Of a stretch of DNA of 27,159 nt, positions 2,920-25,159 are shown in pieces; the stretch's first letter is position 1; every line of letters begins with the position of its first letter. The DNA is from a virus, in IMG/VR virus record IMGVR_UViG_3300045999_003964, positions 1-27,159 of that record. The stretch is one strand, 5' to 3'. Below the pieces are notes generated by a model that was not told where the DNA came from, ran no database searches, and was given only the letters and a program-made list of their open reading frames with translations. The position numbers were made by a program, and so were the translations under genes.

Positions 2920-3900
2920 TCAGAATGTCCCGCCGTTCACCGTGTCCCACTTCGGGGCCGATGCGCCAGCAACCAGTACTTGACCCGCCGTCCCAAGACC
3001 CAGCTTGGACAGCGTCGTCGATGCGCTCGCGTACAGGATGTCGCCAGCCGTGTAGGAAGACTGCCCAGAGCCCCCAGAAGCCGCGTTCAGCACGCCGCCA
3101 AGGGTCAGGGTGCCCGTCGTCGTGATCGGGCCTCCTGTGACCGTCAGGCCCGTCGTGCCGCCGCTTCCATTGACCGATGTCACCCCGCCGACCACCATGG
3201 TCTGCCAAGACCCGTTGGCGTAGCCCTCGAACACCCCCAGGTCGGTGTTGTAGCGCAGGTAGCCGTTCGTGTTGGGGTTGCGCTCGACCGTGGTCCCCGT
3301 GGGCAGCTTCACGCCGCCCGTCCCCGGGATCACCGGGTTGTCGGCCAGACCCACCGTCGGGTTCCCGGCAGCCCCGTTCCCGTCCGCCACGTCGATCTCG
3401 CCGGCCGTGCCCAGCAGCACCCGCGGGTTCAGCCCCGACCCATTCGAGGCCAGGATTCCCGGGGTCGAGATGTTCGCCAGATCGGCCACCTGCCCCGTCA
3501 GCGCGAACGTGGGGTTGCCCAGCACCCCATTGCCGTTCGTGATGCTCAGCCCCAGCCCCGAGGCCGTCAGCGTCCTGGCTTCCACCGTCACCGAGCCGGT
3601 CTTCGCCACGATGCCCGTCAGGGCCGTTTCCAGGCTCCCAGAGGCGCCGTTGAGGCTCAGGGCTAGGGTGGACAGGGCTCCGCCGTCCGCGAGCCCCAGG
3701 CCCGTTCCTGCGGTCAGCCGGCGGCTGTTGGCCAGCGTCGGCTCTTGGTTCAGCGTCAGGAAGGTCTGGAACTGCGCCGGGGACGCCGCGATCGCCGCAG
3801 CCGTCGACTGGCGGGTCTGGCCGTCTTGAACAACAGGCACAAGCTCCGTCCCCGTGATGGGGCCGGCCACCGGCAGTTGGGTGATGGTGACGTTTGCCAT
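2920..3900 (-). CDS. Fibre-like tail protein (326 aa)
   Basis: A Gly/Thr/Ala-rich, low-charge protein beginning MANVTITQLPVAGPITGTELVPVVQDG, a start typical of phage fibre or appendage proteins. It has repeating LTASGLGLS / GNPTFALTG / GNPTVGLAD units (about residues 110-190) suggestive of beta repeats. The C-terminus carries SGQSSYTAGDILYAS and GTAGQVLVAGASAPKWDTVNGG, the same kind of module found near the N-terminus of the next gene. The ATG follows the previous TGA directly, with a GAGG 5 nt upstream. It probably forms the proximal part of an appendage with the 573-aa fibre; the interaction is inference. Confidence 0.72.
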   Translation of the reverse strand: MANVTITQLPVAGPITGTELVPVVQDGQTRQSTAAAIAASPAQFQTFLTLNQEPTLANSRRLTAGTGLGLADGGALSTLALSLNGASGSLETALTGIVAKTGSVTVEARTLTASGLGLSITNGNGVLGNPTFALTGQVADLANISTPGILASNGSGLNPRVLLGTAGEIDVADGNGAAGNPTVGLADNPVIPGTGGVKLPTGTTVERNPNTNGYLRYNTDLGVFEGYANGSWQTMVVGGVTSVNGSGGTTGLTVTGGPITTTGTLTLGGVLNAASGGSGQSSYTAGDILYASASTTLSKLGLGTAGQVLVAGASAPKWDTVNGGTF

Positions 3901-8773: not shown

Positions 8774-9688
8774 TCAGACGCCCGGCGTGCCGTACATCGC
8801 GCGCGGGTCGGTGAAGCCGACGTCGTAACGCTCGGTCGCCTTGTAGCGCATCGAGTCCGTCTCGAAGTCGCCTTCCATGGTCTTCTCCAGCTTCCGGCGC
8901 ATCAGGAGCTTCATGCCCTCCGGCGCGTCGGTCTGAACCCACCATGCGGTCGGCGAAGTCAGACGCGACAGAACCGCCGCGCCCTCGTCCAGCAGACCGA
9001 TCGACTTGATCGGGTTGATGTCGTTGTTGGCGTTGCCGGCACGCAGAACCGACTTCAGCAGCACCTCGGCCTGGAAGACGTTGCCCGGGGCCACCACCAG
9101 TTGGCGGGGCACCAGACGAATCCGCTTGCCGTTGTTGTCCACCGCCTGACGGATCTGGATCAGCATCTGCTCCAGCGACGTCTGCGAGAGGTTCGCAGCA
9201 GTCGTCAGCAGGTTGCTGAACGTGCCGTTGACGATGGGGTGCGATGCGCTGTTCAGTTGCACGCCGTCGCCGCCAGGGTACGAGCTGTTGAAGGCGCGAT
9301 TCAGCACGTTGGCCGACAGCGTCTCCTTCGTCTCGATCAGCGACTGGGCGAGGTGCCGCGCGTAGACCTGTCCGATTCGGATGTGGTCGCCGTCTTCCAC
9401 GAGCACCTTGGTCAGCGCGAACGCCAGACCGTACACGTTGTAGACGTAGCGCTTCAGGAACAGCACGCCACCCTGCTGGTACGACACGGGAGTGCCGTCC
9501 GGCAGTTGCGGCGCCGCGCCGAAGCCGTAGAGCACGGGCTCTTCGTGGTAGTTGCGGGGGATGCCCTGCGACTCCCGGAAGACCCGCGACCACTCGTCGG
9601 TGCGCTGGTCGTAGACGCCATCGAAGCATTCGTTCAGGATCGGCTCGACGATCGAACGAAAGTCGGTACTTCTCATCGGAGCTGCCAT
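8774..9688 (-). CDS. Major capsid protein (304 aa)
   Basis: The shell-forming head protein, probably HK97-like in fold. Supporting features are ESQGIPRNYHEEPVLYGFG near the N-terminus, ETKETLSANVLNRAFNSSY (about 120-138), DGVQLNSASHP, LSQTSLEQMLIQIRQAVDNNGKRI (about 167-190), and PRQLVVAPGNVFQAEVLLKS followed by NANNDINPIKSIG. The last segments strongly recall Mu gpT-like and podovirus capsid subunits. The C-terminal AWWVQTDAPEGMKLLMRR segment fits the same families. AAGGAGG lies 7 nt before the ATG, the best ribosome-binding site in the region, consistent with high expression. A probable scaffold and a co-chaperonin are encoded upstream. Confidence 0.85.
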   Translation of the reverse strand: MAAPMRSTDFRSIVEPILNECFDGVYDQRTDEWSRVFRESQGIPRNYHEEPVLYGFGAAPQLPDGTPVSYQQGGVLFLKRYVYNVYGLAFALTKVLVEDGDHIRIGQVYARHLAQSLIETKETLSANVLNRAFNSSYPGGDGVQLNSASHPIVNGTFSNLLTTAANLSQTSLEQMLIQIRQAVDNNGKRIRLVPRQLVVAPGNVFQAEVLLKSVLRAGNANNDINPIKSIGLLDEGAAVLSRLTSPTAWWVQTDAPEGMKLLMRRKLEKTMEGDFETDSMRYKATERYDVGFTDPRAMYGTPGV

Positions 9689-12412: not shown

Positions 12413-12567
12413 TTCTTCTTCGTCGCCTGGGACAGACCTCCTTGCGCCGGCTTGCCATTGCCGGAATCCTTGGCCTGCATCGACTGGCCGTCGACCTTGG
12501 CGCCCATCGCCATGCGCTTGTGCTGCGGCACGAGCACGCTCTTCTGCTCCTGATCACTGGTAGCCAC
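12409..12567 (-). CDS. Small Lys/Gln-rich protein (52 aa)
   Basis: The reading frame starts at a GTG (12567) with AAAGGAG at 6-nt spacing and overlaps the 3' end of the portal gene by 14 bp. The product begins MATSDQEQKSVLVPQHKRMAM, continues with a Gly/Ser/Asp-rich stretch, and ends QATKKK. It bridges the portal gene and the 65-aa gene, with a GTGA overlap to the latter. No family was recognised. The strong ribosome-binding site and clean overlaps support it being real. Confidence 0.6.
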   Translation of the reverse strand: MATSDQEQKSVLVPQHKRMAMGAKVDGQSMQAKDSGNGKPAQGGLSQATKKK

Positions 12568-15100
12568 TTCCTGCTCCTTTCATGGTGTCGATCACGGTCT
12601 TGTCCTGGTCGAGTCTCAACCGGGCCGCATCCCGCGTCAGGCGGGCCGTCTCGATGCGCTCCTTCATCTCCTGGTCGCCCTGGGCGATGGCCAGCTTCAG
12701 TTGGAGTTCCTCGATGGCGAGATCCTTCTCGTCCATCTGCTTCTGCTGGGCAAGCTGCAGCTTGGCAGTGCTGTCCTGCGCCTTGATCTGCATCTCGGCC
12801 TGATCGCGCGCCTTGCGACGCTCGGTCTCGGCCATGCTGGTCTGCAGCAGCACTTGACCGTCCGGCGTCATCTCGGGCTTGGGCTTGAACTTCTCCAGCA
12901 CCTCGACCATCTGCTGGATCACCGGCATGGTCTTGGCCAGGGTCTCCTGAGCGTCCAGCGCCACGTGCCCTGCGGCCGCGCCGAACAGCTTGTCGAGCTC
13001 CTTCGGGTCCACCGTTTCGGCGTAGTCGTCCGGCTGCCGCCCCAGCGAGCGGTTGACGTAGCCCTTCATCCGAGCCAAGTACCACAGCGCGAAGTGCTGC
13101 TTGATGTGCTCCATCGCCTTGGGTAGGAACGTCGGCGCCACCATCGGATTGGCCCCGAACACCGGGTCCGAGGCGTACTTCAGGTGCGTCACGATGTGCG
13201 AGAAGTGATCCTGCTCCAGGTAGGCGAAGGCGCTCTGGCCGATCGTCATGGCCACATTCTCGTTCGCGGCGTCCAGCTTCTCCGGGGCCGGCGCGTCGGT
13301 CATCAGTTCGTTGATGCCCGGCACCTTGATCTGCTTCAGGAAGCGCATCAGCACCGCCCGGCGGTTGAACATGTCCGGGTTCTTCTCCATCAGGGACATG
13401 ACCGCCTGGGTCTGCGCCATGCGCTGCGTCTCGCTGAAGATGTGCGGGTCGCTCACCGGGATGACGTCCGTCACCCGGGCAAAGTCCTCCCGACGAACCT
13501 CTAGGTCCTCCACCACCTCGCCGCGGCGCATGTCGTCCAAGTACCATCGGTTGATCCGGCTCAGCACCTTCAGGACACGCGACTGCGACTCGTGCAGGCG
13601 GGCATGGATGGCCGAGAACACGGCCGCGCCCTGCTCGATCAGAGCCTGGGTCGTCCCCACCGGGGTGTTCGCGTTGACGTCGGCGATCTTCTCCTCGGCC
13701 GTCGTCACCACCCCCTTCGCTGCGCTCGTCAGCCAGCCCAGCAACTGAAACAGCACCGGGCTGGGCGGGTTGAACGGCATCGGCATGGCCAGCTTGCGGA
13801 CGTCGTCAACGCCCGGCGCCGCCTCGATCTCGGCGATCTGGGTCACCTCGACCTGCTGCGACTGCCCAGACACCTTCGCGCCCTTGAGCTTCAGCAGCGT
13901 CGCGGCGTTGTTGATGTGCGCCGAGTCCATCAGGGCCCTCAGAGCGCCCGTCAGAGCCGCAGAAAGGCCCCCGATGAGGTGCGGCAGGCCCACGGCATAG
14001 GCCCCGCGCCACGGGATGAACTTGAACTCGACCACCCAGTCGAGTTTCGTCATCGTTTCGTCGCCCTCTTCCCAGTTTCGGTACAAACCGATGACCTCCG
14101 ACTCCAAATCGTCGATCATCAGGATGTAAGGGGCCATCTTTCCCTTGCTGAAGGTGTCGTTTTTGACCTCCAGCCACGTATAGATGTGATAGACACGCCG
14201 AACGCCGTCTTCGTTCTCGTTTTCCGACCTTCCCTCGACCTTGTCGGTGGCTTTTTGCGCCGCAGTGGGCTCCGGGTCCATCGTTGACCGGATGAAACTG
14301 CCGTCTCGGTACAGTCCAGACGCAATTCGACGGTCGAATTCGTACTTTGAGAGGTTGTGGACCTCAGTTGCGCGCGGCGCGGTGTAGAAATTCGACGCCG
14401 CGAAGGGCAAAAGCACGTTGTCGATGGGCAAAAACTCAGCGCAGGGCCGCTTTTTGTCCTCGTCGTACCAGAGTTTCAGGTATTGCGAGCCACCGAGCGG
14501 CAGTTGCGTGAAGAGTTGCTCCTGCTCGTCGCGAAACTCCTCGATCTGCTCGGTCAACTGCCAGTTCATGAAGTCGCGCTTGCGCTCGGCGATCTCCATC
14601 TTGTCCTGATCGACGTCTCCGAGGATCTTCGTGCGCGTCGGGCCGTCGGCCGGGAACAGTTCTCGGATGGCCCGGGACGCGAAGTCGATGCACGCCTCGG
14701 CCATCACCGGGTGGACGACCTTGCTCGCGCCAGCGAACGTGGCCCCGCCTGGGGCGTCGTTGCCCATCCCGGTGCGCCGGATGCCGTCCTCGTACTGCTT
14801 GTCGCGCTGCTCGCGCGCCTGCTTGTCCTTGCCGACCAGTTCGAGGAACTTCAGCGCCATCGAGTCCAGTTCGAACGGGTCGATGACGTCGCTGTCGGCG
14901 AGGTTCTGGTAGAAGTCCTCGTTGTCCTGGGGCCCGTTGGTGTCCAGCCGAACCACCGCAGAGCCATCAGGAAGCTCCTCGATGTCCGACTCGGTCAGTT
15001 CAAGGTCGACCTCAACCCCCGGCGTCTCGCCGTCAGCGTCTTGGGGCATCCCCTGCACGAAGCGGTTGAACTCAGGATCGATCGGGAACTCGGTTGCCAT
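12554..15100 (-). CDS. Portal protein (848 aa)
   Basis: Forms the dodecameric DNA gate at the capsid vertex and the docking site for terminase. The N-terminal 80 residues are acidic. The body contains MALKFLELVGKDKQAREQR, KVVHPVMAEACIDFASRAIRE (about 127-147), PLGGSQYLKLWYDEDKKRP, EFLPIDNVLLPFAASNF, and PWRGAYAVGLPHLIGGLSAA followed by LTGALRALMDSAHINNAATLL, the typical portal stem/wing region. The last 110 residues are a charged, Gln-rich coiled coil, as in podovirus portals whose C-terminus forms a barrel. The length suits this class. The ATG at 15100 has a weak AGG 8 nt upstream. It is followed directly by the small head genes. Confidence 0.88.
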   Translation of the reverse strand: MATEFPIDPEFNRFVQGMPQDADGETPGVEVDLELTESDIEELPDGSAVVRLDTNGPQDNEDFYQNLADSDVIDPFELDSMALKFLELVGKDKQAREQRDKQYEDGIRRTGMGNDAPGGATFAGASKVVHPVMAEACIDFASRAIRELFPADGPTRTKILGDVDQDKMEIAERKRDFMNWQLTEQIEEFRDEQEQLFTQLPLGGSQYLKLWYDEDKKRPCAEFLPIDNVLLPFAASNFYTAPRATEVHNLSKYEFDRRIASGLYRDGSFIRSTMDPEPTAAQKATDKVEGRSENENEDGVRRVYHIYTWLEVKNDTFSKGKMAPYILMIDDLESEVIGLYRNWEEGDETMTKLDWVVEFKFIPWRGAYAVGLPHLIGGLSAALTGALRALMDSAHINNAATLLKLKGAKVSGQSQQVEVTQIAEIEAAPGVDDVRKLAMPMPFNPPSPVLFQLLGWLTSAAKGVVTTAEEKIADVNANTPVGTTQALIEQGAAVFSAIHARLHESQSRVLKVLSRINRWYLDDMRRGEVVEDLEVRREDFARVTDVIPVSDPHIFSETQRMAQTQAVMSLMEKNPDMFNRRAVLMRFLKQIKVPGINELMTDAPAPEKLDAANENVAMTIGQSAFAYLEQDHFSHIVTHLKYASDPVFGANPMVAPTFLPKAMEHIKQHFALWYLARMKGYVNRSLGRQPDDYAETVDPKELDKLFGAAAGHVALDAQETLAKTMPVIQQMVEVLEKFKPKPEMTPDGQVLLQTSMAETERRKARDQAEMQIKAQDSTAKLQLAQQKQMDEKDLAIEELQLKLAIAQGDQEMKERIETARLTRDAARLRLDQDKTVIDTMKGAGSGYQ

Positions 15101-15116
15101 GTTGTTGACCTATCGG

Positions 15117-18100
15117 TTATGCCAGAGCGCCCTGACGAGTGACCTCTCCGCCTTCCTTCTTGACCGTACGGACGTCAGGCATCGGCGCACCCTTGAAGTA
15201 CGGCATCAGCACGCCGCGCCCCGTATCGATCATGTCCAGCAGGTACTCGCGCACGGCCTTCGGTGTCGGGTTGATGCCTTGGCCTTGCAGCGTGTAGGCG
15301 GTCTGCTTTTCCAGCAGATCCAGCGCGTCGCCGCGCGGTGACTTCAGGCCAGTCAGTTCGCCGCCGCCGAACCACCTGCCGGCCTGGGCCGTACCGCCAG
15401 GAATGCCCATTTCATTGGCGATGTCGAGCATTTTGCTCTCTGCCAGTCCGTACTCCGTCGGGCCGAACCCGCCTTGCTCGGTGAAGTAGGGGTGGAACCT
15501 GCTTCCCTGCGTCTGTCCAGCCGCCTCATGGACGTCCAGCACGACACTCTTGCCGAAGTCTCCAGCCTTCTGCGTGCCGTAGGTCGGGATCTTGTAGTTG
15601 GTCGGGATGTCGGCCTTCAGCAGATCCCGCATGTTCAGCCCGCCCTCGATGACGTTGCGCACGCCCTCTCGATGCACCGGCATCAGCGGCAGACCCGTCC
15701 CATACTGCTGCTTGAACTTGGCCATCTCGGCGGTGACCGTGGCCTCATCAAGCGGCAAACCCCGCGCGTTCATGTCGCGCAAGAACTGCCCCACGGCCAT
15801 CTCGTTCATGATCGAGTTGCGCGCGCTTGCCGGTGCCGTCTGATAGACGAACTGATCGAACTTCTCGGCGGGAATGCCGCGCTCCAGTGCCGCCATCTTC
15901 AGCGGGTACAGCGACGCATAGAACGTCTCGCCACCCAACGGTAGGCCGCGGCCGATCTGCTGCTTGATCAGCGCGCGATTGGCCGGGTCGTCGTAGATTT
16001 CGTTGATGTAGTCGGTCTGCGCGCGCGGCGCCTCGTACCGCGGGAAGCGCGTCTGCTCGATGCCCGGGAAGCCTTCCATCGCCTCCTTGATCATCGCTCG
16101 GTCGAACGCCTGCTTTTCAGGAGGCGGCGGCGTCCACGGTTCTGTGGGCTTGCTCAAGAACTCCCTGGCCTTCTCGGCGCGTTCCGCCACCACCTCGGGG
16201 GCGTTGCGCAGGCGCCTGGGCGCCGGCATGTCATACGACGACGGCGACAGCTCCCCGTAGGTCTTCTGCAGTTCAGGGCGGGTTTCGCGCTCCCACTTCA
16301 GGCGCGCCAGCACCTGCCGTTGCGCCCGCGAGGCCACCTCCTGCTCCGTCAACTTGGGCGCGTCCTTGCTGATCGCGGCCGCGCGCTCCAGCATCATCTG
16401 CCGCACCGTTTCGGGCTTGGCATAAGGGCGCGAACGACCCTGCGCAAGCATCTGATTGGCTTGGTCGATGGCAGACGTCAGCGACGGCGGCGGAGCGGCT
16501 TCCAGGGCCTTCTTGGCGGCTTCTTGGGCAGCCTTCTCTGCCAGCCGACCCTCTGCTCGGGCCGCAGCACGTGCAGCCGCCCCGGCCGCACCCTTGGCCG
16601 CGCCGCCGGCAGCAAAGGTCGGCTCGATGCGCTCCTTGTTCAGACCGTTGATGTAGTCCTCCATCTCCTTGAGCATCTGGCGACGCTCAGGCGAGATGCT
16701 CGGGTGCTCCCGCAGCAGCTTCGCCCCCGTCATGGCGCGCGGCAGCCCAGCGCCCACGAACGCCGCACCGGCCCCACGCCCGGCCGGCACCCGTTCTGCC
16801 CCCTGCGCCATGCCCTGCATGATCAGACCAGGGATGTCCGCCGCACCCGCAGCCGGCAGCGTAGCCGCCTCGTCAGGCCGCACCCGTGCGCTGCGGGGCG
16901 CGATGTTCGCCCCCTGCACGCCCCTCGCAGCAGGATTGGCTGCGGACGGCCCACGGCCCTTGTCCGCATTCAGGAGGTCGCGCAGCGTCATCTGCGCGCC
17001 GAACTGGCGCCGGAAGTCGGCGAGCTCTTCAGCACTCACCATCGTCCGGCCGTCGACCACCGGCCGATTGGGCAGCGGGCCGCTCCAGGTCTTGCGCATC
17101 CGCACCGGCTCGGGCTTGAACAGGGCGTTCTGCGCCGAGCGCCTCTGACGCATCTGGCGCTCCGCCGCCTCGTACAGGTCGCCGCCCTCGTTCATCAGCA
17201 CCGCCCCGCCGGCCTTCATTTGCGCGTCCGACATCCGCAGCGCCATCGTCATCGCGCGGTCAGGGTCAACACCCTGGCCGACCAACTTGCCGGCGATCAC
17301 GTCCGCCGCTTGCGTGTAGCTCATGCTTCCTCCAACAGGCCCGCCTTGGGCCTTCTTTGTGGGCAGCTTCTCTTCGTTGCGCTGCAGGATGGTGAGGTTC
17401 TTCTCCTCGCCGGGGAAGACGACGAAGTTGCGGGTGCCTTGACCGGCGGCGCGGCTTCCCTCGTCAAGATACTTGATGCCAAGAATGCCCATGCCCTGGA
17501 ATTCGCGAGACGCTCCCTCGGGAGACAAGAATTTGGCAAACGTCTCGTAGGCATCCCGCCCAGTCAGCCGGCCCTCATTGCGCGCACCAGCCTTGAAAAG
17601 CAACTCCTCGGCGTTCAGCGCCTCAATAATTGAGCGGCCAATCTCACCCTGCTGCGCGAGCGGCTTGTCCCAGTCAAGCATCTTTTCGATCATCGGATCC
17701 GGGAGGTCGACGGTATATAGGGCGCCGCCTTCTGGCTTGTATTGCATGGCCCTGAGAAGGCTCGCGGCTTCGTCGTGAATCTTCGTGGCGTCATCCATCC
17801 ACGTCAATTCCCCACTCGCCGCGTCGAGGTCGCCCTTCTTTTCCTTCAGGGTTTGATATGCCAGCGCTGCAGATTCCTGAGAATAACCCTGGCCTTTGGC
17901 CGCGTCAGAAAACGTCTTCCACTCCGGCGACCCACCAACGATTGACACATCCTTGCCGCCAAGCAGGAACACGTTGGGATTCTTGCCGGTCAATCGCTCG
18001 CGGTATCCAGTCGCCACCTCTGGCGCTTCCGCCGTGTAGGTTCCAACCCCATACGCCTGAGCGCCCTCGCCCGTGCCAATCTTCTCTGACCGGAACCTCC

Positions 18101-19682
18101 CAAGGGGCGCGCCCTCTTCAGGAGCAAAGGTGTGCGGCGAACCGTGGTACACCGTGGCCAAAGCCGTCGTAGGCCCCTGCCGCTCAACGTCCTTCAACTC
18201 CGAGATGGGGACGTCATAGCTCTCTTCTGGAAAGGTCGCGCGGCGCTGCTCTGCAGTCATGCCTGCGCGCGCCTCTACAGCCCGCGCCTCCGCCTCTCCC
18301 GGGGTTCTCAAGTATTGCTGCGTCGGCGTAAGCTCCGCCTTGCTTGTCTCGCGATTCAACGCGCTTGTCACGTCCTCGCCAAGCATCCACAGTTGCTCTT
18401 GACTCTTTGGGGGCTCCAAGCCAGCGGCTTTGGCGGATTGTCTTAAATCCTCCCATTCCGATTTTGGCAGACGGGTGTTGAAGTCAAGCCCGTCAATAAT
18501 CGATTGCGTGAATTCATACACATCACCAGAGAGCGATATGTCACTTGGCCTCAAGTCGGCCGGCCCGCCGAGTTTTGCGGACAAATTCGCAAACGCATTG
18601 AACGCTGCGCGCTGCTCTGGCGTCTGCTTGAACTTGTATTCGAACATATCCGGGTTTGCGCCAGCGCCAAACCCTTCGCGCTCTTGAATCGGGTGCTGAG
18701 CCTCATGAAGCGCCGTCTTTTTGGTCGCCCCGCGGCCAAGGGTAATTTCCTCGGGCAAAACGCCGAAGCCAGCAAAATGTGACGACTGACCAGTGGGATC
18801 CACCGTCATCCGCATCGACTGCAACTCAGGGTAGGCGCGAAACAACTCTGGATGAGACAGGACTTCAGCGACTGTCTTTGCCTGCGGGTCGGGAGTGAAG
18901 CGAGCTTCAACATCGCTGATCTCCTGCCGCCACTGCCCATCAGGCGCCCGCCAGTTTCCAGTTTGCGACCAGATGTCCCGCGGGTCGGCGCCGGCCTTCT
19001 CCATCTCCACCGCGCGCACGTTCGACGCAGCGTCCCAGGTCTTGGCGCTCTTGCCGATGAAGATGTCGGGCATCATCCCGGCCCGGCGCATGTACGCCTC
19101 GGCCATCTCGGCAGCCTTCGGGCCCAGGCTCTGCACCGTCGCCTTGCCCGCCTTCGCCGCCCCGCGCCCGGCCGCAGCAACACCGCGCGCCGCCGGCCGC
19201 GCAGCAGCACCCGCCCCCAGCAGGTTCAGCGGGTCGGCCAGCAACTCTGCCCCAGTGGCCAGCAGCGGAGAGCCCGTCGCCCTCAGCGTCGCCTCGCCGG
19301 CAGCCTGGGGGATCGCCCCCAGCGGCGACAGGCCCTCGGCAATGCCCCTGACGGCCCGTATGCCGCCTTCTGTCTTCGGGTCGATGGTCAGGTAGTCCTG
19401 CACCCTCTGAACGGCGTCTGCGGCCTTCTCGGGGCCCTGCCCGGCGCCCAGATACCCCAGGCCCGCCAGACCAGCAGGGATGCTCCCCAGCACGGCCGAG
19501 CCGATCGTCTCCAGCGCCTCGCCGCCACCGCGCTGAGTGCGCCGGCCCGGGCTCGACGTGCGGAACGACGGACGCGACGCAGCGGCCAACTCAGCCGCCG
19601 TCGGAGGAACCTCCTCACGCCGACGGGTCGGCTCAGCCGTCCCCGCCAGCACTCGCCGAAGCTCCTCGTCCATCAGGTCCAT
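15117..19682 (-). CDS. Large polyvalent protein with HExxH (LPD23-like) and ADP-ribosyltransferase-like domains
   Basis: A 1521-aa multidomain protein. The N-terminal 190 residues are Ala/Gly/Arg-rich with hydrophobic segments (SAVLGSIPAGLAGLGYLG). At about 322-340 comes ATKKTALHEAQHPIQ, an HExxH zinc site, with a TPGEAEARAVEARAGM motif near 462, as in LPD23-type domains. ATVYHGSPH (near 510) and EKIGTGEGAQAYGVGTYTAE (near 533-552) match polyvalent-protein ART domains, ending near residue 770 (ARNFV-like FVVFPGEEKNLTILQ). The remainder is Ala-rich helical linker plus a C-terminal domain with VLDVHEAAG, GPTEYGLAESK and WFGGGELTGLK (about 1380-1440). I start at the ATG 19682, 5 nt after GGGAG; a GTG at 19688 is less likely. 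Such proteins are thought to be ejected with DNA and to act on host defences; that role is inference here. Confidence 0.75.
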   Translation of the reverse strand: MDLMDEELRRVLAGTAEPTRRREEVPPTAAELAAASRPSFRTSSPGRRTQRGGGEALETIGSAVLGSIPAGLAGLGYLGAGQGPEKAADAVQRVQDYLTIDPKTEGGIRAVRGIAEGLSPLGAIPQAAGEATLRATGSPLLATGAELLADPLNLLGAGAAARPAARGVAAAGRGAAKAGKATVQSLGPKAAEMAEAYMRRAGMMPDIFIGKSAKTWDAASNVRAVEMEKAGADPRDIWSQTGNWRAPDGQWRQEISDVEARFTPDPQAKTVAEVLSHPELFRAYPELQSMRMTVDPTGQSSHFAGFGVLPEEITLGRGATKKTALHEAQHPIQEREGFGAGANPDMFEYKFKQTPEQRAAFNAFANLSAKLGGPADLRPSDISLSGDVYEFTQSIIDGLDFNTRLPKSEWEDLRQSAKAAGLEPPKSQEQLWMLGEDVTSALNRETSKAELTPTQQYLRTPGEAEARAVEARAGMTAEQRRATFPEESYDVPISELKDVERQGPTTALATVYHGSPHTFAPEEGAPLGRFRSEKIGTGEGAQAYGVGTYTAEAPEVATGYRERLTGKNPNVFLLGGKDVSIVGGSPEWKTFSDAAKGQGYSQESAALAYQTLKEKKGDLDAASGELTWMDDATKIHDEAASLLRAMQYKPEGGALYTVDLPDPMIEKMLDWDKPLAQQGEIGRSIIEALNAEELLFKAGARNEGRLTGRDAYETFAKFLSPEGASREFQGMGILGIKYLDEGSRAAGQGTRNFVVFPGEEKNLTILQRNEEKLPTKKAQGGPVGGSMSYTQAADVIAGKLVGQGVDPDRAMTMALRMSDAQMKAGGAVLMNEGGDLYEAAERQMRQRRSAQNALFKPEPVRMRKTWSGPLPNRPVVDGRTMVSAEELADFRRQFGAQMTLRDLLNADKGRGPSAANPAARGVQGANIAPRSARVRPDEAATLPAAGAADIPGLIMQGMAQGAERVPAGRGAGAAFVGAGLPRAMTGAKLLREHPSISPERRQMLKEMEDYINGLNKERIEPTFAAGGAAKGAAGAAARAAARAEGRLAEKAAQEAAKKALEAAPPPSLTSAIDQANQMLAQGRSRPYAKPETVRQMMLERAAAISKDAPKLTEQEVASRAQRQVLARLKWERETRPELQKTYGELSPSSYDMPAPRRLRNAPEVVAERAEKAREFLSKPTEPWTPPPPEKQAFDRAMIKEAMEGFPGIEQTRFPRYEAPRAQTDYINEIYDDPANRALIKQQIGRGLPLGGETFYASLYPLKMAALERGIPAEKFDQFVYQTAPASARNSIMNEMAVGQFLRDMNARGLPLDEATVTAEMAKFKQQYGTGLPLMPVHREGVRNVIEGGLNMRDLLKADIPTNYKIPTYGTQKAGDFGKSVVLDVHEAAGQTQGSRFHPYFTEQGGFGPTEYGLAESKMLDIANEMGIPGGTAQAGRWFGGGELTGLKSPRGDALDLLEKQTAYTLQGQGINPTPKAVREYLLDMIDTGRGVLMPYFKGAPMPDVRTVKKEGGEVTRQGALA

Positions 19683-19691
19683 CGTCACTCC

Positions 19692-19874
19692 CTAGTGCGG
19701 CTCATGATGCACCCAGACCTCGTTCCCGGTCTCAGGGTCCACGTACTCCAGCCTCGGACAGCACCAGCACAACGGCGACGGCAGGTGCTCCGTCGCCTCC
19801 TGCCCGCGGTCGAGCATCACGTGCTTCTCATACACCGGCCATACCCGCCCGCCGGGTATCTGCTCACGCTGCAT
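19692..19874 (-). CDS. Small protein with Cys pair (60 aa)
   Basis: The ATG at 19874 lies inside the end of terL and has GGGAG 7 nt upstream. The product begins MQREQIPGGRVWPVYEKHVML, contains LCWCCPRLEYVD with clustered cysteines, and ends WVHHEPH. The CxCC plus terminal His cluster suggests metal binding, perhaps a partial zinc knuckle. A longer in-frame version from 19967 would translate Arg-rich sequence shadowing terL, so I prefer the short form. No family was recognised. Confidence 0.55.
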   Translation of the reverse strand: MQREQIPGGRVWPVYEKHVMLDRGQEATEHLPSPLCWCCPRLEYVDPETGNEVWVHHEPH

Positions 19875-22113
19875 AGGGATTCTCCCGCTTTGCCCGCCCG
19901 GTGTCTGCGTAGTCGTCTTCGTCCCAGTCATCCTGCGGCGGCGGGTCAACCTCCAGCCATCCCGCATCGCGAAGGAATCTCAGCGCCTGCGTCAGTGTAT
20001 CCACCAGATCATCGTTCGTCGTATTCGGAAACGCGCACACCTGCGAAACCAGCGGCTCCGCCCAGTCCCGCACATACCCAGGTCGCTGCGAACTCTCGGG
20101 AATCCACACCCGCCCCCGGGCAATGATGTGCGACACGATGTTCAGGCGCTGCAGCTTGTCCGCCTTCCCAGGGTTGTACGCCCGCACCGGCAGGTGAGCA
20201 CGCTGCAGGTCCTGGATCAGCGAGATCCCCGCCGACTTGTCCTCGATCAGGATCAGATCCACCCGCTTGCGGTCCCGCCCGTCCACCCCGGACTCGAAGA
20301 CGGTGTCGTACTCGTCCACCACCTTCGGCCGCAGATCAGGATACTGCAGCCGGTCCTGCCAGCAGTCGATCAGCATCACGCTCATCGGCCCGTCCTCGGG
20401 CTTGAACACGCCCCAGGTGCTCGACGCCGTCGGGTCGTTCTGCGTCTTCTCCGACGTCGCGCAGTCGTAGCTCTGCAGCACGTACTCGAACTTCGGGAAC
20501 GCCTTCGCGTGCGACCAGAGCTTGAAGTGCCCTCGCTTGACGATCCCGCCCTCCTCGGGGTCGATGATCTCAGCATGGATCTCCTGCCGGCCGAGCGTCG
20601 TGCCCTCGTACTGCAGGATCTGCTTCTTGAAGTTGGCCGACAGGTTGCCCAGGTTGGCATAGGTCGACGCCCGCGTCACCACGACGTCGTCGCCCTCCCG
20701 CCCGATCAGTTCGATGATCAGGTCCTTCGGCTTCGGCGTCGTCGTGATCACCGTCTTCGTCTGCGCCCCCAGGCGCACGCCGAACTGGATCTGGTCCCAC
20801 GACTCTTGGATGTAGTCCCAGGCAGCGAGCTCGTCGCAGTTATGGACGACGATGCCGTTGGCGATGAACTCGTGCTCGCCCTCAACCGTCAGGTTGTACG
20901 TCGCAGCGTTGGGCAAGCGTTCGACGCGGCGTACCGCCAGCGGGTTGACTGCGATAGGTGCGCACCTTGGATCGGTTGTTGCACGCCCGGCAGCAGTACC
21001 GCTGGAAATGCTTCGTCGCGATGTACGCTCCCCGGCAAACCTCACAGGCTCGTTGCTCGGGCTCGAACACGTTGCGCCGCCACCGCTCCAAGCAGTCGCG
21101 AGAACAGAAGGAACCCACCCGCCCAACGGCCAAGGAGACAAACCCGGCGCCGCATTGAAGGCAGCGCCCATCCTTGGGAGTGCGCAGCTTGGCCAGGGTC
21201 GCCGAAGCAGCAGCCTTTTGAGCGGCCGTCGCCGGCTTGCCGGTCTGGTGCATCCGGTTGTGCTCAGCCCGAGGCATTGCCTCAAGGTTCGCAGGGTCGT
21301 TGTTGCCAGGGTCGCCATCCCGGTGATGAACCACCCAGCCAGCCGGAATCGGCCCATGATGCCGCTCGTAAATGACCCGATGCGCGTACCTGCCGCCGAT
21401 GTACTTGTAGCCCATACCAAAGCGCCTTCCTTGACGTCGCCAGCAGCCACCCACTGGTCGCCCACCAGTATGGGATGGTCCTCCGTCACCGTCAAGCTCG
21501 TCTCGCCACAATCCAGCCTCACCAGATCCGCGGGATTGCCCGACGGTCCAGCCGCCAGCACTTGCCTGGGGCCATGCCGGGTCAGCACGACATCACCAGC
21601 CCGCAGCGTCTCGATTGGCCGCTCTCCGCCCGGCGTGGCGATCAGCGTCCCCGGGATGCAGCACCAAGCCCCGTGGAACTGCGGCCCCCGGAAGCGCTCA
21701 GGCTCCGACGCCGGGATGCCCTTGATCAGCGACCCGTTCGTCAGGCGGAGCTCGTGCAGCGCCTTGTTGTACTCGGCGATCAGCGGCGCAGGGATCACGC
21801 TCATCAGCCCCGAGTCGCCCTCGAAGCACGTCCCCCGCACGTCAGACGACGTCGGCGCCGCCACCAGCCAGCGCGTCCCCGGGTTCTCCCAGGCCCACCA
21901 CCCCACCTGCTCTGCGGCCGTTCTGGTCTTCCCAGCACCCCGCCCGGCCAGCATCAGCCAGATCGACCACCAGTCCCCCGACGGCAAGACCTGATGCCCG
22001 TGCGCCTGCTGCAGCCACCGGGCCCGCCACAGGTACGCCAGCCTCTTGTCCGCCGGCAGCGCCTTCAGCGCGCCCCGGACGTCCGGCGCGGCCAGGGTCT
22101 CAGCGAGGTTCAC
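19864..22113 (-). CDS. terL: Terminase large subunit precursor with intein
   Basis: The ATPase/nuclease that packages DNA into proheads. The 749-aa open frame includes about 475 residues of terminase and a 275-residue intein. The ATPase shows Walker A LAGRGAGKT near 55-63 and an adenine-side segment upstream; Walker B becomes HGAW-CDELAAW only after intein removal. The nuclease half has SYDCATSEKTQNDPTASS (about 548-565, first acidic site), DLILIEDKSAGISLIQD (about 619-635, second) and NDDLVDTLTQALRFL (about 700-714, third), typical of Terminase_6C-type nucleases. The GTG start follows GAGG at short spacing. Without splicing, Walker B would be disrupted, so activity depends on the intein. terS lies 2.5 kb upstream rather than adjacent. 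Confidence 0.92.
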   Translation of the reverse strand: MNLAETLAAPDVRGALKALPADKRLAYLWRARWLQQAHGHQVLPSGDWWSIWLMLAGRGAGKTRTAAEQVGWWAWENPGTRWLVAAPTSSDVRGTCFEGDSGLMSVIPAPLIAEYNKALHELRLTNGSLIKGIPASEPERFRGPQFHGAWCCIPGTLIATPGGERPIETLRAGDVVLTRHGPRQVLAAGPSGNPADLVRLDCGETSLTVTEDHPILVGDQWVAAGDVKEGALVWATSTSAAGTRIGSFTSGIMGRFRLAGWFITGMATLATTTLRTLRQCLGLSTTGCTRPASRRRPLKRLLLRRPWPSCALPRMGAAFNAAPGLSPWPLGGWVPSVLATAWSGGGATCSSPSNEPVRFAGERTSRRSISSGTAAGRATTDPRCAPIAVNPLAVRRVERLPNAATYNLTVEGEHEFIANGIVVHNCDELAAWDYIQESWDQIQFGVRLGAQTKTVITTTPKPKDLIIELIGREGDDVVVTRASTYANLGNLSANFKKQILQYEGTTLGRQEIHAEIIDPEEGGIVKRGHFKLWSHAKAFPKFEYVLQSYDCATSEKTQNDPTASSTWGVFKPEDGPMSVMLIDCWQDRLQYPDLRPKVVDEYDTVFESGVDGRDRKRVDLILIEDKSAGISLIQDLQRAHLPVRAYNPGKADKLQRLNIVSHIIARGRVWIPESSQRPGYVRDWAEPLVSQVCAFPNTTNDDLVDTLTQALRFLRDAGWLEVDPPPQDDWDEDDYADTGRAKRENPYAA
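20839..21663 (-). mobile_element. Intein within terL, inserted at Walker B
   Basis: The intein spans terL residues 151-425. Block A is CCIPGTLIATPGGERPIETL followed by RAGDVVLT (Cys1 then Thr at +5). Block B is TSLTVTEDHPILV with the TxxH-like motif. Block F/G is ATYNLTVEGEHEFIANGIVVHN followed by Cys+1. Removing Cys151 to Asn425 joins HGAW to CDELAAW and restores a perfect terminase Walker B, which fixes the boundaries. The first of two adjacent Cys residues is therefore Cys1. In the terL frame, about 150 residues between blocks B and F (roughly 233-388) read as Ser/Arg/Trp-rich non-domain sequence, while an HNH gene occupies another frame there. Confidence 0.92.
20882..21415 (-). CDS. HNH homing endonuclease nested out of frame in the terL intein
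   Basis: A 177-aa HNH nuclease in the -1 frame relative to terL. It begins MGYKYIGGRYAHRVIYERHH; the core is PAGWVVHHRDGDPGNNDPANL then MPRAEHNRMH, giving the His-His, Asn and distal His of the ββα-metal fold in about the first 55 residues. Two zinc-knuckle-like pairs follow: CLQC...FCSRDC and CEVC...CCRAC. It has its own ATG at 21415 with GGAAGG 9 nt upstream. The frame opens further upstream to 21511, but there it overlaps block B of the intein and reads as low-quality sequence. It ends inside the C-terminal splicing block. It probably drives intein homing. Two compensating frameshifts that moved an in-frame domain out of phase are an alternative. Confidence 0.85.
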   Translation of the reverse strand: MGYKYIGGRYAHRVIYERHHGPIPAGWVVHHRDGDPGNNDPANLEAMPRAEHNRMHQTGKPATAAQKAAASATLAKLRTPKDGRCLQCGAGFVSLAVGRVGSFCSRDCLERWRRNVFEPEQRACEVCRGAYIATKHFQRYCCRACNNRSKVRTYRSQPAGGTPRRTLAQRCDVQPDG

Positions 22114-23000: not shown

Positions 23001-23488
23001 GCCGCCTCCATCCGCCGCCGCAGCGGCTGTAGCGCCCAGGCCCACACCGCGCCACCGGCCACCTTCGCCACGAACTGCAGCGCCACGATGTGCGGCATCA
23101 ACGCGCCGAAGGCCAGCGTCGGGAATACCAGAGAGTCCACTGCCGCGCCGGCCGCGTTCGAGGCATTCGACCTCGCCAGCCATGACCCTCGCATCCTGGC
23201 GAACACCCCCCAGTCGACGACCGCCGCCGCAGTGAAGGCGACCGAAGAAGCCACTGCGATCATCCCCGCTGCCGGGTTCAGCACGTACGTCAACGCGCCC
23301 GTCCCAATGATCAGGGCACCCATCTGCCACACCCGCAGGCGGACATGCAGCAGGTCGCGCAGCGCCAGATCTAGGCCGATCAGGAGGAAGGCATTGATCG
23401 GAGACACCCACGGGCCGAGAACGGCCACAGACAGGTTCGCCAGCACCATGGCCGCTGCGTAGGCAATGATCGCGATCATCGGGGTCAT
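22997..23488 (-). CDS. yhhQ: Queuosine-precursor transporter, YhhQ/VUT family
   Basis: An integral membrane protein of 163 aa with about five or six hydrophobic segments. Diagnostic stretches are MVLANLSVAVLGPWVSPINAF (first helices), INAFLLIGLDLALRDLLHVRL (about 31-51), VLNPAAGMIAVASSVAF, and the family signature RSNASNAAGAAVDSLVFP (about 106-123) followed by VALQFVAKVAGGAVWAW. This RSNxSN...VDS pattern is typical of PF02592/YhhQ, which imports preQ0/preQ1 or queuine across the inner membrane in E. coli. It is shorter than the bacterial protein (about 220 aa), as in phage versions. The ATG overlaps the dpdA-like stop as ATGA; the upstream in-frame extension shadows that gene. Confidence 0.82.
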   Translation of the reverse strand: MTPMIAIIAYAAAMVLANLSVAVLGPWVSPINAFLLIGLDLALRDLLHVRLRVWQMGALIIGTGALTYVLNPAAGMIAVASSVAFTAAAVVDWGVFARMRGSWLARSNASNAAGAAVDSLVFPTLAFGALMPHIVALQFVAKVAGGAVWAWALQPLRRRMEAA

Positions 23489-24162
23489 ATCAACTCCACT
23501 TGCAATGCCATCGGCTTCCATGCCGTCGGCGGGTTCTCTGCATTGATGCGCTTGGCCATGCAGCTGGCGCACACCCTCTGCTCTGCATGATGCAGCGCAA
23601 CATTGGTGCTGTCCGCGCTGGACAGCGGCCACCGTTCTGTTCCCTGGCCCAGCATCCGCATCCCGTGCGTCCACGGCAGTCGGCCAAACTTCCGCGCCAG
23701 GGCGTTGAATGCCTCGTCCATCCTGCCGGCCCAGGCCGGCCCGCCAACCTGCCAATACTGGCCCGACGACCCCAGCGCAACGCGCCCCCAGCCGTCCACC
23801 AGTTCCAGCAGGTAGTCGATCGGCAAGCCGAGATGCCAGACAGGCATCCCCAGCGCACGCGGGAATGGCCACGTCTTGACCATCTCGCGCTGTTGCTCGA
23901 CCGACCCGTCGATCACATCAGGCACCACGCCCCAGTGCGGGTGCGCCAGCAGCGGGTCGACCCACTCATAGAACCCGTTGAGGTTGAACTCCGCGCCGCG
24001 GGTCTTGGCAGAGAACGCGCCGTTGTCCAGCATCAGGGACTGCCCGATGCGCAAGCAGGTCTTGAGGCTGTCCGGCCGGGCAAAGCTCACGCAGAAGTGC
24101 TGGCCGGCCATCGACTCCAGCGCCAGCTTCGGCGTGATCGGCGTGCCGTGGAAGTGAATCAC
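23485..24162 (-). CDS. dpdA: DpdA/TGT-like 7-deazaguanine DNA transglycosylase
   Basis: A 225-aa TIM-barrel enzyme related to tRNA-guanine transglycosylases, expected to swap guanine for a 7-deazaguanine base, probably in DNA. Barrel landmarks are HFCVSFARPDS (22-32), SLMLDNGAFSA (42-52; Asp46 where TGTs have DSGGFQ), WGVVPDVIDG (77-86), PVWHLGLPIDYLLELV (107-122), GRVALGSSGQYWQVGG, GRLPWTHGMRMLG (160-172) and PLSSADSTNVALHH (179-192), where Asp184 is a candidate nucleophile. CASC near 198-201 with nearby His may bind zinc. It is shorter than bacterial TGT (about 375 aa). The GTG start has GAGGAG about 7 nt upstream. It heads a chain of ATGA-overlapped genes including yhhQ. The gene symbol is by resemblance. 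Confidence 0.75.
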   Translation of the reverse strand: MIHFHGTPITPKLALESMAGQHFCVSFARPDSLKTCLRIGQSLMLDNGAFSAKTRGAEFNLNGFYEWVDPLLAHPHWGVVPDVIDGSVEQQREMVKTWPFPRALGMPVWHLGLPIDYLLELVDGWGRVALGSSGQYWQVGGPAWAGRMDEAFNALARKFGRLPWTHGMRMLGQGTERWPLSSADSTNVALHHAEQRVCASCMAKRINAENPPTAWKPMALQVELI

Positions 24163-24556: not shown

Positions 24557-24683
24557 ATAGGAAATCCCAATGACGCCCCAGGCCCCGCCACCAGCCCAAG
24601 CGGTCTCAGCCCGGGATTTCCGCATCCCCCCAGCACCCGACCAAGGGTTTACCCTGGCTCCAGCCATAGGAAATGCCTATGAC
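24557..24683. repeat. Pair of 18-bp direct repeats flanking an inverted core
   Basis: ATAGGAAATCCCAATGAC (24557-24574) and ATAGGAAATGCCTATGAC (24666-24683) match at 16 of 18 positions, 109 bp apart. The core GGAAATCCC also occurs inverted as GGGATTTCC at 24613-24621, between them. The right copy overlaps the end of terS. Spaced copies of a half-palindromic site suggest binding by a phage or host protein such as a repressor or the terminase; this is inference. Confidence 0.6.
24644..24681. repeat. Three abutting dyad-symmetric sequences at the end of terS
   Basis: AGGGTTTACCCT (24644-24655), GGCTCCAGCC (24656-24665) and CATAGGAAATGCCTATG (24665-24681) are each inverted repeats and lie back to back. 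The last spans the terS TAG stop at 24677-24679. Together they could form a run of short hairpins at the 3' end of the terS mRNA or a protein-binding array. Confidence 0.5.
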
Positions 24684-25159
24684 TCCGACGCCTGACGCTT
24701 CATCTGGGCGTTCTCTAGGATCGCCTGGAGCAGCTTGTCGGCGTGAACCTCCGCCTCCAGTTTGATCGGGTTGTCAGCGTCGCCGGCCACCTGGACCCTC
24801 TCACCGTAGGCTTTCGGCTTGAGCTTGCTGGCGACCCACTTCCTGGCGTCGACCCTGTTCTTCTGCCACGCCACCCAGGCAGAGTCGATCCGAGCCACGC
24901 CCTTGTCGTCCACGACCATCTGCGGCTTCTCGTCCGCCAGCGCCGTGATCTGCGCCGCCAGCGTGTCCGCCTGATCCTCCCGCGCACGCGCGTACTGATC
25001 CGCGAACTCGGGCCGCGCCTTCAGCCACTGGTACACCGTCGAGACCCCGATGCCCTCTGCGGCGCATATGGATGGGAGTGCTTCGCCGTTGGACAGGCGG
25101 GCACAGATGGTGGCGGCGATCTCTGGCGTGTACGTGCTGGGGCGTCCGGTCTTGGGCAT
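24677..25159 (-). CDS. terS: Terminase small subunit (Sf6 gp1-like)
   Basis: A 160-aa DNA-recognition subunit that brings phage DNA to the large terminase. The N-terminal MPKTGRPSTYTPEIAATICAR is followed by a helix-turn-helix (LPSICAAEGIGVSTVYQWLK, about 28-47). A central helical segment for oligomerisation follows (EFADQYARAREDQADTLAAQI), then RVDARKWVASKLKPKAYGER (about 102-121), which closely recalls Sf6 gp1 and related small terminases, and a C-terminal tail for TerL contact. AGGAG lies 6 nt before the ATG. It precedes the repeat-rich gap and is separated from terL by four genes, an uncommon arrangement. Confidence 0.85.
   Translation of the reverse strand: MPKTGRPSTYTPEIAATICARLSNGEALPSICAAEGIGVSTVYQWLKARPEFADQYARAREDQADTLAAQITALADEKPQMVVDDKGVARIDSAWVAWQKNRVDARKWVASKLKPKAYGERVQVAGDADNPIKLEAEVHADKLLQAILENAQMKRQASES

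Follow-up and report, generated by a model that had tools for sequence, protein, structure and literature searches.

Most described nuclease-bearing inteins carry the nuclease fused in frame, and introns are the classical location of genes for I-HmuI-type HNH homing endonucleases. A brucellaphage terL gene was mentioned in passing in 2015 as holding an out-of-frame, putatively intein-encoded HNH gene (PMC4422536). ShiLan elements consist of an out-of-frame HNH gene without a splicing domain (Arsenault et al. 2025, PMC11855218; also PMC12613952) and are described in phage methylases in PMC11855218. The same paper cites actinobacteriophage inteins of "non-canonical architecture" (Gosselin et al., bioRxiv 10.1101/2025.01.02.630785) for frequent overlapping reading frames in actinobacteriophages. 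PMC10448857 credits Dassa et al. (2009) with the description of fractured genes in which split inteins are accompanied by a separate nuclease.

The window analyzed here is the whole of a 27,159-base IMG/VR virus record (IMGVR_UViG_3300045999_003964), in which coding is mostly on the minus strand. Its terL gene is a single uninterrupted ORF of 749 aa (19864 to 22113, minus strand). A preliminary description made from the sequence had proposed an intein at 20839 to 21663 with an HNH gene nested in the -1 frame under its own ATG. These intein boundaries were found to be correct, and the HNH gene was confirmed in the -1 frame. The features are as follows.

21664 to 22113, minus strand: terL N-extein, 150 aa, GTG start, from Walker A to HGAW; the frame is open and matches intein-free TerL alleles.
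20839 to 21663, minus strand: intein, 825 nt, 275 aa in the terL frame (CCIPGTLI...GIVVHN), defined by Hint/intein families, empty alleles and the joining of the flanks.
21400 to 21663, minus strand: N-terminal half of the splicing domain, blocks A and B, with Cys1 and TEDHP; AlphaFold2 pLDDT >90, match to solved inteins at Z ~20.
20965 to 21399, minus strand: terL-frame linker, ~145 residues with no domain and no stop; pLDDT ~29.
20839 to 20964, minus strand: C-terminal half of the splicing domain, blocks F and G, VVHN followed by Cys+1; TIGR01443 at 8.4e-8, pLDDT >90.
20882 to 21415, minus strand: nested HNH gene, 177 aa, -1 frame relative to terL; PF13392 at 4.5e-20, match to I-HmuI.
21425 to 21432, minus strand: Shine-Dalgarno-like AAGGAAGG within the Hint-motif codons for K-E-G, 9 nt 5' of the HNH ATG.
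19864 to 20838, minus strand: terL C-extein from Cys+1 onward, with the remaining ATPase and the RNase H-like nuclease domain (PF03237, PF17289).

Excision of the intein joins HGAW to CDELAAW as in the intein-free relatives (joined flanks, GPQFHGAWCDELAAWD). The terL frame matches the profiles PF13403 (Hint_2, 1.3e-8), TIGR01443 (intein_Cterm, 8.4e-8) and PF14890 (Intein_splicing, 1.3e-5, which in the window copy is under the curated Pfam cut-off). The terminase and Hint/intein domains share this frame, and HNH_3 (PF13392) is in the other, with its ATG at 21415 (offset 2 from terL) and its stop at 20882. Cys1, the block B TxxH motif and a terminal Asn followed by Cys+1 are all found in the host frame; Cys1, TxDHP in block B and the C-terminal VVHN before Cys+1 are kept across the intein family. 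The intein structure model and alignment A3 start one residue after the first Cys of the intein. The Cys1 boundary is backed by empty alleles, by single-Cys relatives such as L015 and by the structural register, in which model residue 1 pairs with residue 2 of solved inteins. The confident segments of the AlphaFold2 model (model residues 1-87 and 233-274, pLDDT >90) together match the gp41-1 and RecA inteins with Z ~20 and rmsd of 1.6-1.8 over 122-127 aligned residues, and the model predicts that a Hint fold is present in the terL intein. The 145 residues between them, at pLDDT ~29, are predicted to be disordered. A canonical bifunctional intein would have the nuclease fused in frame between the splicing halves; here the HNH gene lies in the -1 frame in the window copy and in all its relatives. 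Nor is it a split intein or fractured gene in the window, as the terL frame is unbroken over 749 codons.

Other genes of the window include a small terminase (24677 to 25159, minus strand, 8.4e-35), a portal (12554 to 15100, minus strand, 2.4e-17) and a capsid-like gene (8774 to 9688, minus strand, 2e-11), which by their profile matches are an ordinary tailed-phage head module. A 1523-aa protein (15117 to 19688, minus strand) contains a large polyvalent protein associated domain (LPD23, 9.3e-11). Beside the terminase genes, the gene at 23485 to 24162 (minus strand) matches PHROG 887, queuine tRNA-ribosyltransferase-like (4.4e-40), and is possibly a DNA-modification gene.

The nested gene is predicted to encode a homing-type HNH endonuclease. 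Catalytic His and Asn residues and zinc-type Cys pairs are conserved, with invariant His/Asn positions and Cys pairs common to 45 HNH relatives. I-HmuI is the only solved relative found by profile (E 3e-5) and the top hit by structure as well (Z 6.6, rmsd 2.9, 60 aligned). The nearest non-nested HNH relatives include free-standing HNH genes adjoining terL.

We recovered 36 distinct copies of this intein from IMG/VR, 34 of them full length. The -1 HNH gene and an intein frame with zero stops were found in 34/34 full-length homologues. This layout, identical in every full-length homologue recovered, is not a chance arrangement. The other two copies are same-site mini-intein derivatives (L033, 3454 to 3840; L039, 212 to 646) which have kept the splicing domain and lost the nuclease wholly (L033) or mostly (L039). 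Several of the same terL genes carry a second intein, at the terL nuclease motif (THDD..), also with a -1 HNH gene. An alignment-based scan for HNH relatives gave the -1 layout in 80/80 best loci, at this second terL site, over a G+C range of ~0.34 to 0.66. Ten divergent ORFs spanning such loci were scanned for domains; nine contained an intein/Hint domain and five a terminase domain, and the partial ORF of L177 gave no domain match. The layout is also carried by the isolate phages TJE1 (Tetrasphaera), Highwayman (Acinetobacter) and LS06 (Rhodobacteraceae), whose annotations give terL alone and omit the nested nuclease. Cultured relatives include TJE1, Highwayman and a prophage of Janthinobacterium sp. 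PC23-8 (L287).

A scan of bacterial and archaeal genomes with a closer HNH alignment yielded 52 usable relatives: 24 nested in the -1 frame, one in the +1 frame, 25 free-standing or unclassified and two in long in-frame ORFs; all searches were seeded by nested HNHs, and these proportions are not estimates of prevalence. No in-frame HNH relative was found among the nested cases. The two long in-frame ORFs (L303 and L288) were considered as ancestral in-frame inteins and not accepted; of these, L303 was inspected and is not an intein. The sole +1 nested HNH gene, in a terL intein of a Planctomycetota MAG (L286, 1051 to 3117), breaks a strict -1 rule. In a Thermoplasmatales archaeon MAG (L256, 1080 to 3275) the -1 nested layout is found at a G+C of 0.34 with a 732-codon open host frame. 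The preliminary description had called an out-of-frame HNH gene unusual compared with most large inteins. Its treatment as an anomaly was too narrow, because an out-of-frame HNH gene is the rule in this terL intein/HNH family. It was concluded that the layout is a real, mostly unannotated class of selfish element, present in well over a hundred other sequences.

In Vibrio phage 1.238.A (L143, NC_055735.1, 1500 to 3386) terL and the N-terminal intein half end at 2534, the C-terminal half restarts near 3045, and the HNH gene overlaps both halves in the other frame. From its sequence this locus, with the intein frame broken and the HNH gene retained, resembles a split intein that arose from the hidden-HNH layout. 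A third intein site, at Walker A, is found in the same terL family (L004, L005, L007, L032, L034 and L048). The Walker A intein is in frame throughout and has a long insert with LAGLIDADG-like motifs by the author's reading of the translation. Several inteins are possible in one terL gene of this family.

The intein appears to have moved between terL genes. L032 is a near-isogenic allele without this intein (exteins 95-98% and flanks 96% identical). In L005 and L007 the inteins are 94% identical to that of the window while the exteins are just 77-86% identical. An empty allele and incongruence between intein and host are the footprint that would be expected of homing.

The intein frame is kept free of stops across the HNH gene. 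No intein-frame stop was found among 114 nested HNHs. Each HNH protein was recoded with its own codon usage to obtain the expectation; over 56 clusters (<60% identity), 163 intein-frame stops were expected and none observed (sum log10 P = -84, treating the 56 clusters as independent). Against this expectation, the absence of intein-frame stops means that selection maintains an open host frame. Per HNH gene, the intein frame was predicted to hold 2.3-2.7 stops and had 0; for the third frame, 10-16 were predicted and 9-15 observed. The -1 register is thus the stop-poorer one for this HNH protein, which can explain its near-exclusive use.

The HNH protein is under protein-level selection, and purifying selection acts on the splicing domain too. 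In the HNH codons, third-position variation is ~2x that of the first and second positions, and HNH amino-acid identity follows splicing-domain identity (e.g., 0.696 vs 0.697). Each HNH fourfold site is a second codon position of the linker, where a change is always nonsynonymous. Divergence at fourfold sites of the HNH gene and the splicing domain was 0.155 and 0.182, 0.610 and 0.537, and 0.637 and 0.686, respectively, and one small bin of five pairs was slower at HNH sites (0.200 and 0.313). Because the HNH fourfold sites diverge about as fast as those of the splicing domain, the linker is best read as a stop-free shadow of the HNH gene, free of protein-level constraint. A functional linker domain was considered, and constraint beyond stop avoidance was rejected as there was no consistent slow-down at these sites. 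Linker identity is above that of a fully random synonymous model, which assumes saturation. The suggestion that the intein tolerates a junk linker is therefore supported: the linker has a pLDDT of ~29, the HNH fourfold sites that overlap it diverge about as fast as those of the splicing domain, and all or most of it has been lost in two relatives.

The HNH start is at a constant place in all full-length homologues and is an ATG except in L026 (GTG). It overlaps terL-frame codons that specify Val-Trp or a comparable pair. The Shine-Dalgarno-like stretch before it sits in the codons of the Hint I-K-x-G-D motif, and both the position and the signal recur in relatives. Predicted Shine-Dalgarno strength exceeds that of synonymous shuffles overall (p 0.019 at this site and 6e-6 at the second site, values that are optimistic as the sequences are related), and the excess comes mostly from members whose amino acids do not force such a sequence. 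In the window the signal is no stronger than in shuffles because the K-E-G codons yield it anyway. It was rejected as a universal signal, since about half of the second-site members are without a good one.

The element is very probably a two-layer mobile intein, in which a self-splicing terL precursor is combined with a separately translated -1 HNH endonuclease that drives homing. The terL frame would encode a Hint splicing domain split by an unstructured linker of ~145 residues, and the precursor would splice itself at the protein level and restore TerL. The linker DNA would carry in its -1 frame a complete HNH gene that has an ATG and a Shine-Dalgarno-like site of its own and would be translated into a separate protein via internal initiation on the terL mRNA. 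The HNH protein would then cut intein-free terL genes, into which the whole element would be copied. Splicing, separate translation, cleavage and homing are the steps that we infer beyond the anatomy, conservation, selection pattern and mobility footprint observed above. The linker would be kept free of stops because TerL translation must pass through it, and the -1 register would be favored as the stop-poorest alternative frame for this HNH protein.

The preliminary description had also allowed that two compensating indels or assembly errors had shifted a once in-frame HNH gene, so that the window copy would be a damaged canonical intein. The in-frame fusion of most described nuclease-bearing inteins, and of the Walker A intein in the same terL family, would favor this explanation. 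We consider it extremely improbable: the -1 offset is the same in 34 homologues from separate assemblies, in 80 second-site loci and in several isolate phages, no relative has the HNH gene in frame, and purifying selection acts on HNH and splicing domain alike. A programmed -1 ribosomal frameshift late in the N-terminal splicing half, producing an intein-HNH fusion, would agree with the -1 offset and with an HNH frame that is open upstream in the window (~60 codons 5' of the ATG) and in some relatives. Judged from the window copy alone, an N-terminally longer or frameshifted HNH product may be made. In many relatives, however, an HNH-frame stop lies a few codons or fewer 5' of the conserved ATG with its Shine-Dalgarno-like sequence, and a fusion cannot begin upstream of it. 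This argues against a frameshift fusion, which we regard as unlikely, and internal initiation is the favored route to a separate HNH protein.

That the insert is an RNA intron with an HNH gene, the open terL frame being incidental, would suit the classical intron setting of I-HmuI-type enzymes. We give this practically no credence, as a complete Hint domain lies in a terL frame that is never interrupted, and an Rfam search at the gathering threshold gave no family for the window or for ten relatives, that is, no recognizable group I or II intron RNA. The HNH protein might instead be a terminase-assisting packaging nuclease with the intein merely as its harbor. Its closest non-nested relatives are free-standing HNH genes adjoining terL, and in some phages HNH proteins and terminases have been reported to act together, as discussed in PMC10448857. 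Against such a role, which we think highly unlikely, the patchy presence, near-isogenic empty alleles and deletion derivatives indicate that the HNH gene is dispensable in this lineage.

Taken jointly, the observations would fit an old, coherent two-layer class of hidden-HNH inteins in the terminases of bacterial and archaeal viruses. Free-standing HNH genes from beside terL would have entered mini-inteins, nearly always in the -1 frame, as this register is stop-poor and the Hint K-x-G-D codons can double as a Shine-Dalgarno sequence. Decay of the linker would then leave a split intein with its nuclease encoded apart, the state seen in Vibrio phage 1.238.A, and offer a concrete path by which natural split inteins and fractured genes could arise. 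We give this wider reading an even chance. The broken state of L143 is a plausible route to split inteins, and the layout is a testable intermediate between these and mini-inteins with separate nucleases. It accounts for the presence in an intein of a nuclease that is not fused to the splicing domain. It is also a clean natural case of overlapping coding, with one frame constrained as protein and the other only to have no stop, and annotation of such stretches with one product loses the other. An intein able to accommodate a long unstructured stretch between its Hint halves may also be of use as a tool.

The window element belongs to a scarcely described intein variant with precedent in the brucellaphage terL gene and ShiLan. 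The breadth and constancy of the class and its selection pattern look new; in the literature examined, which did not cover the Gosselin preprint, we found no description of these, of the stop-poor register, of the signal inside the Hint motif or of the broken L143 state. The brucellaphage terL gene, like that of the window, contains an out-of-frame HNH gene proposed to be part of an intein; that report (PMC4422536) gave no splicing-domain, selection or comparative analysis, and the likeness is drawn from its published description. ShiLan shares an other-frame HNH gene in an insertion, an open host frame and a patchy, mobile distribution. It differs in having no detectable splicing domain or ribosome-binding site and in sitting in a methylase, whereas the window element has a full Hint domain and is not of the ShiLan type. 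The mini- and split inteins gp41-1 and Mtu RecA have the same Hint fold, to which the window intein adds a disordered linker of 145 residues that overlaps a second gene. I-HmuI (1u3e) has an HNH module like that of the window but is intron-encoded, while the window HNH is nested in an intein and has two Cys-pair modules. Fractured genes, as described in PMC10448857, likewise have a separately encoded nuclease between intein halves; the host frame is unbroken in the window, and L143 shows the broken state.
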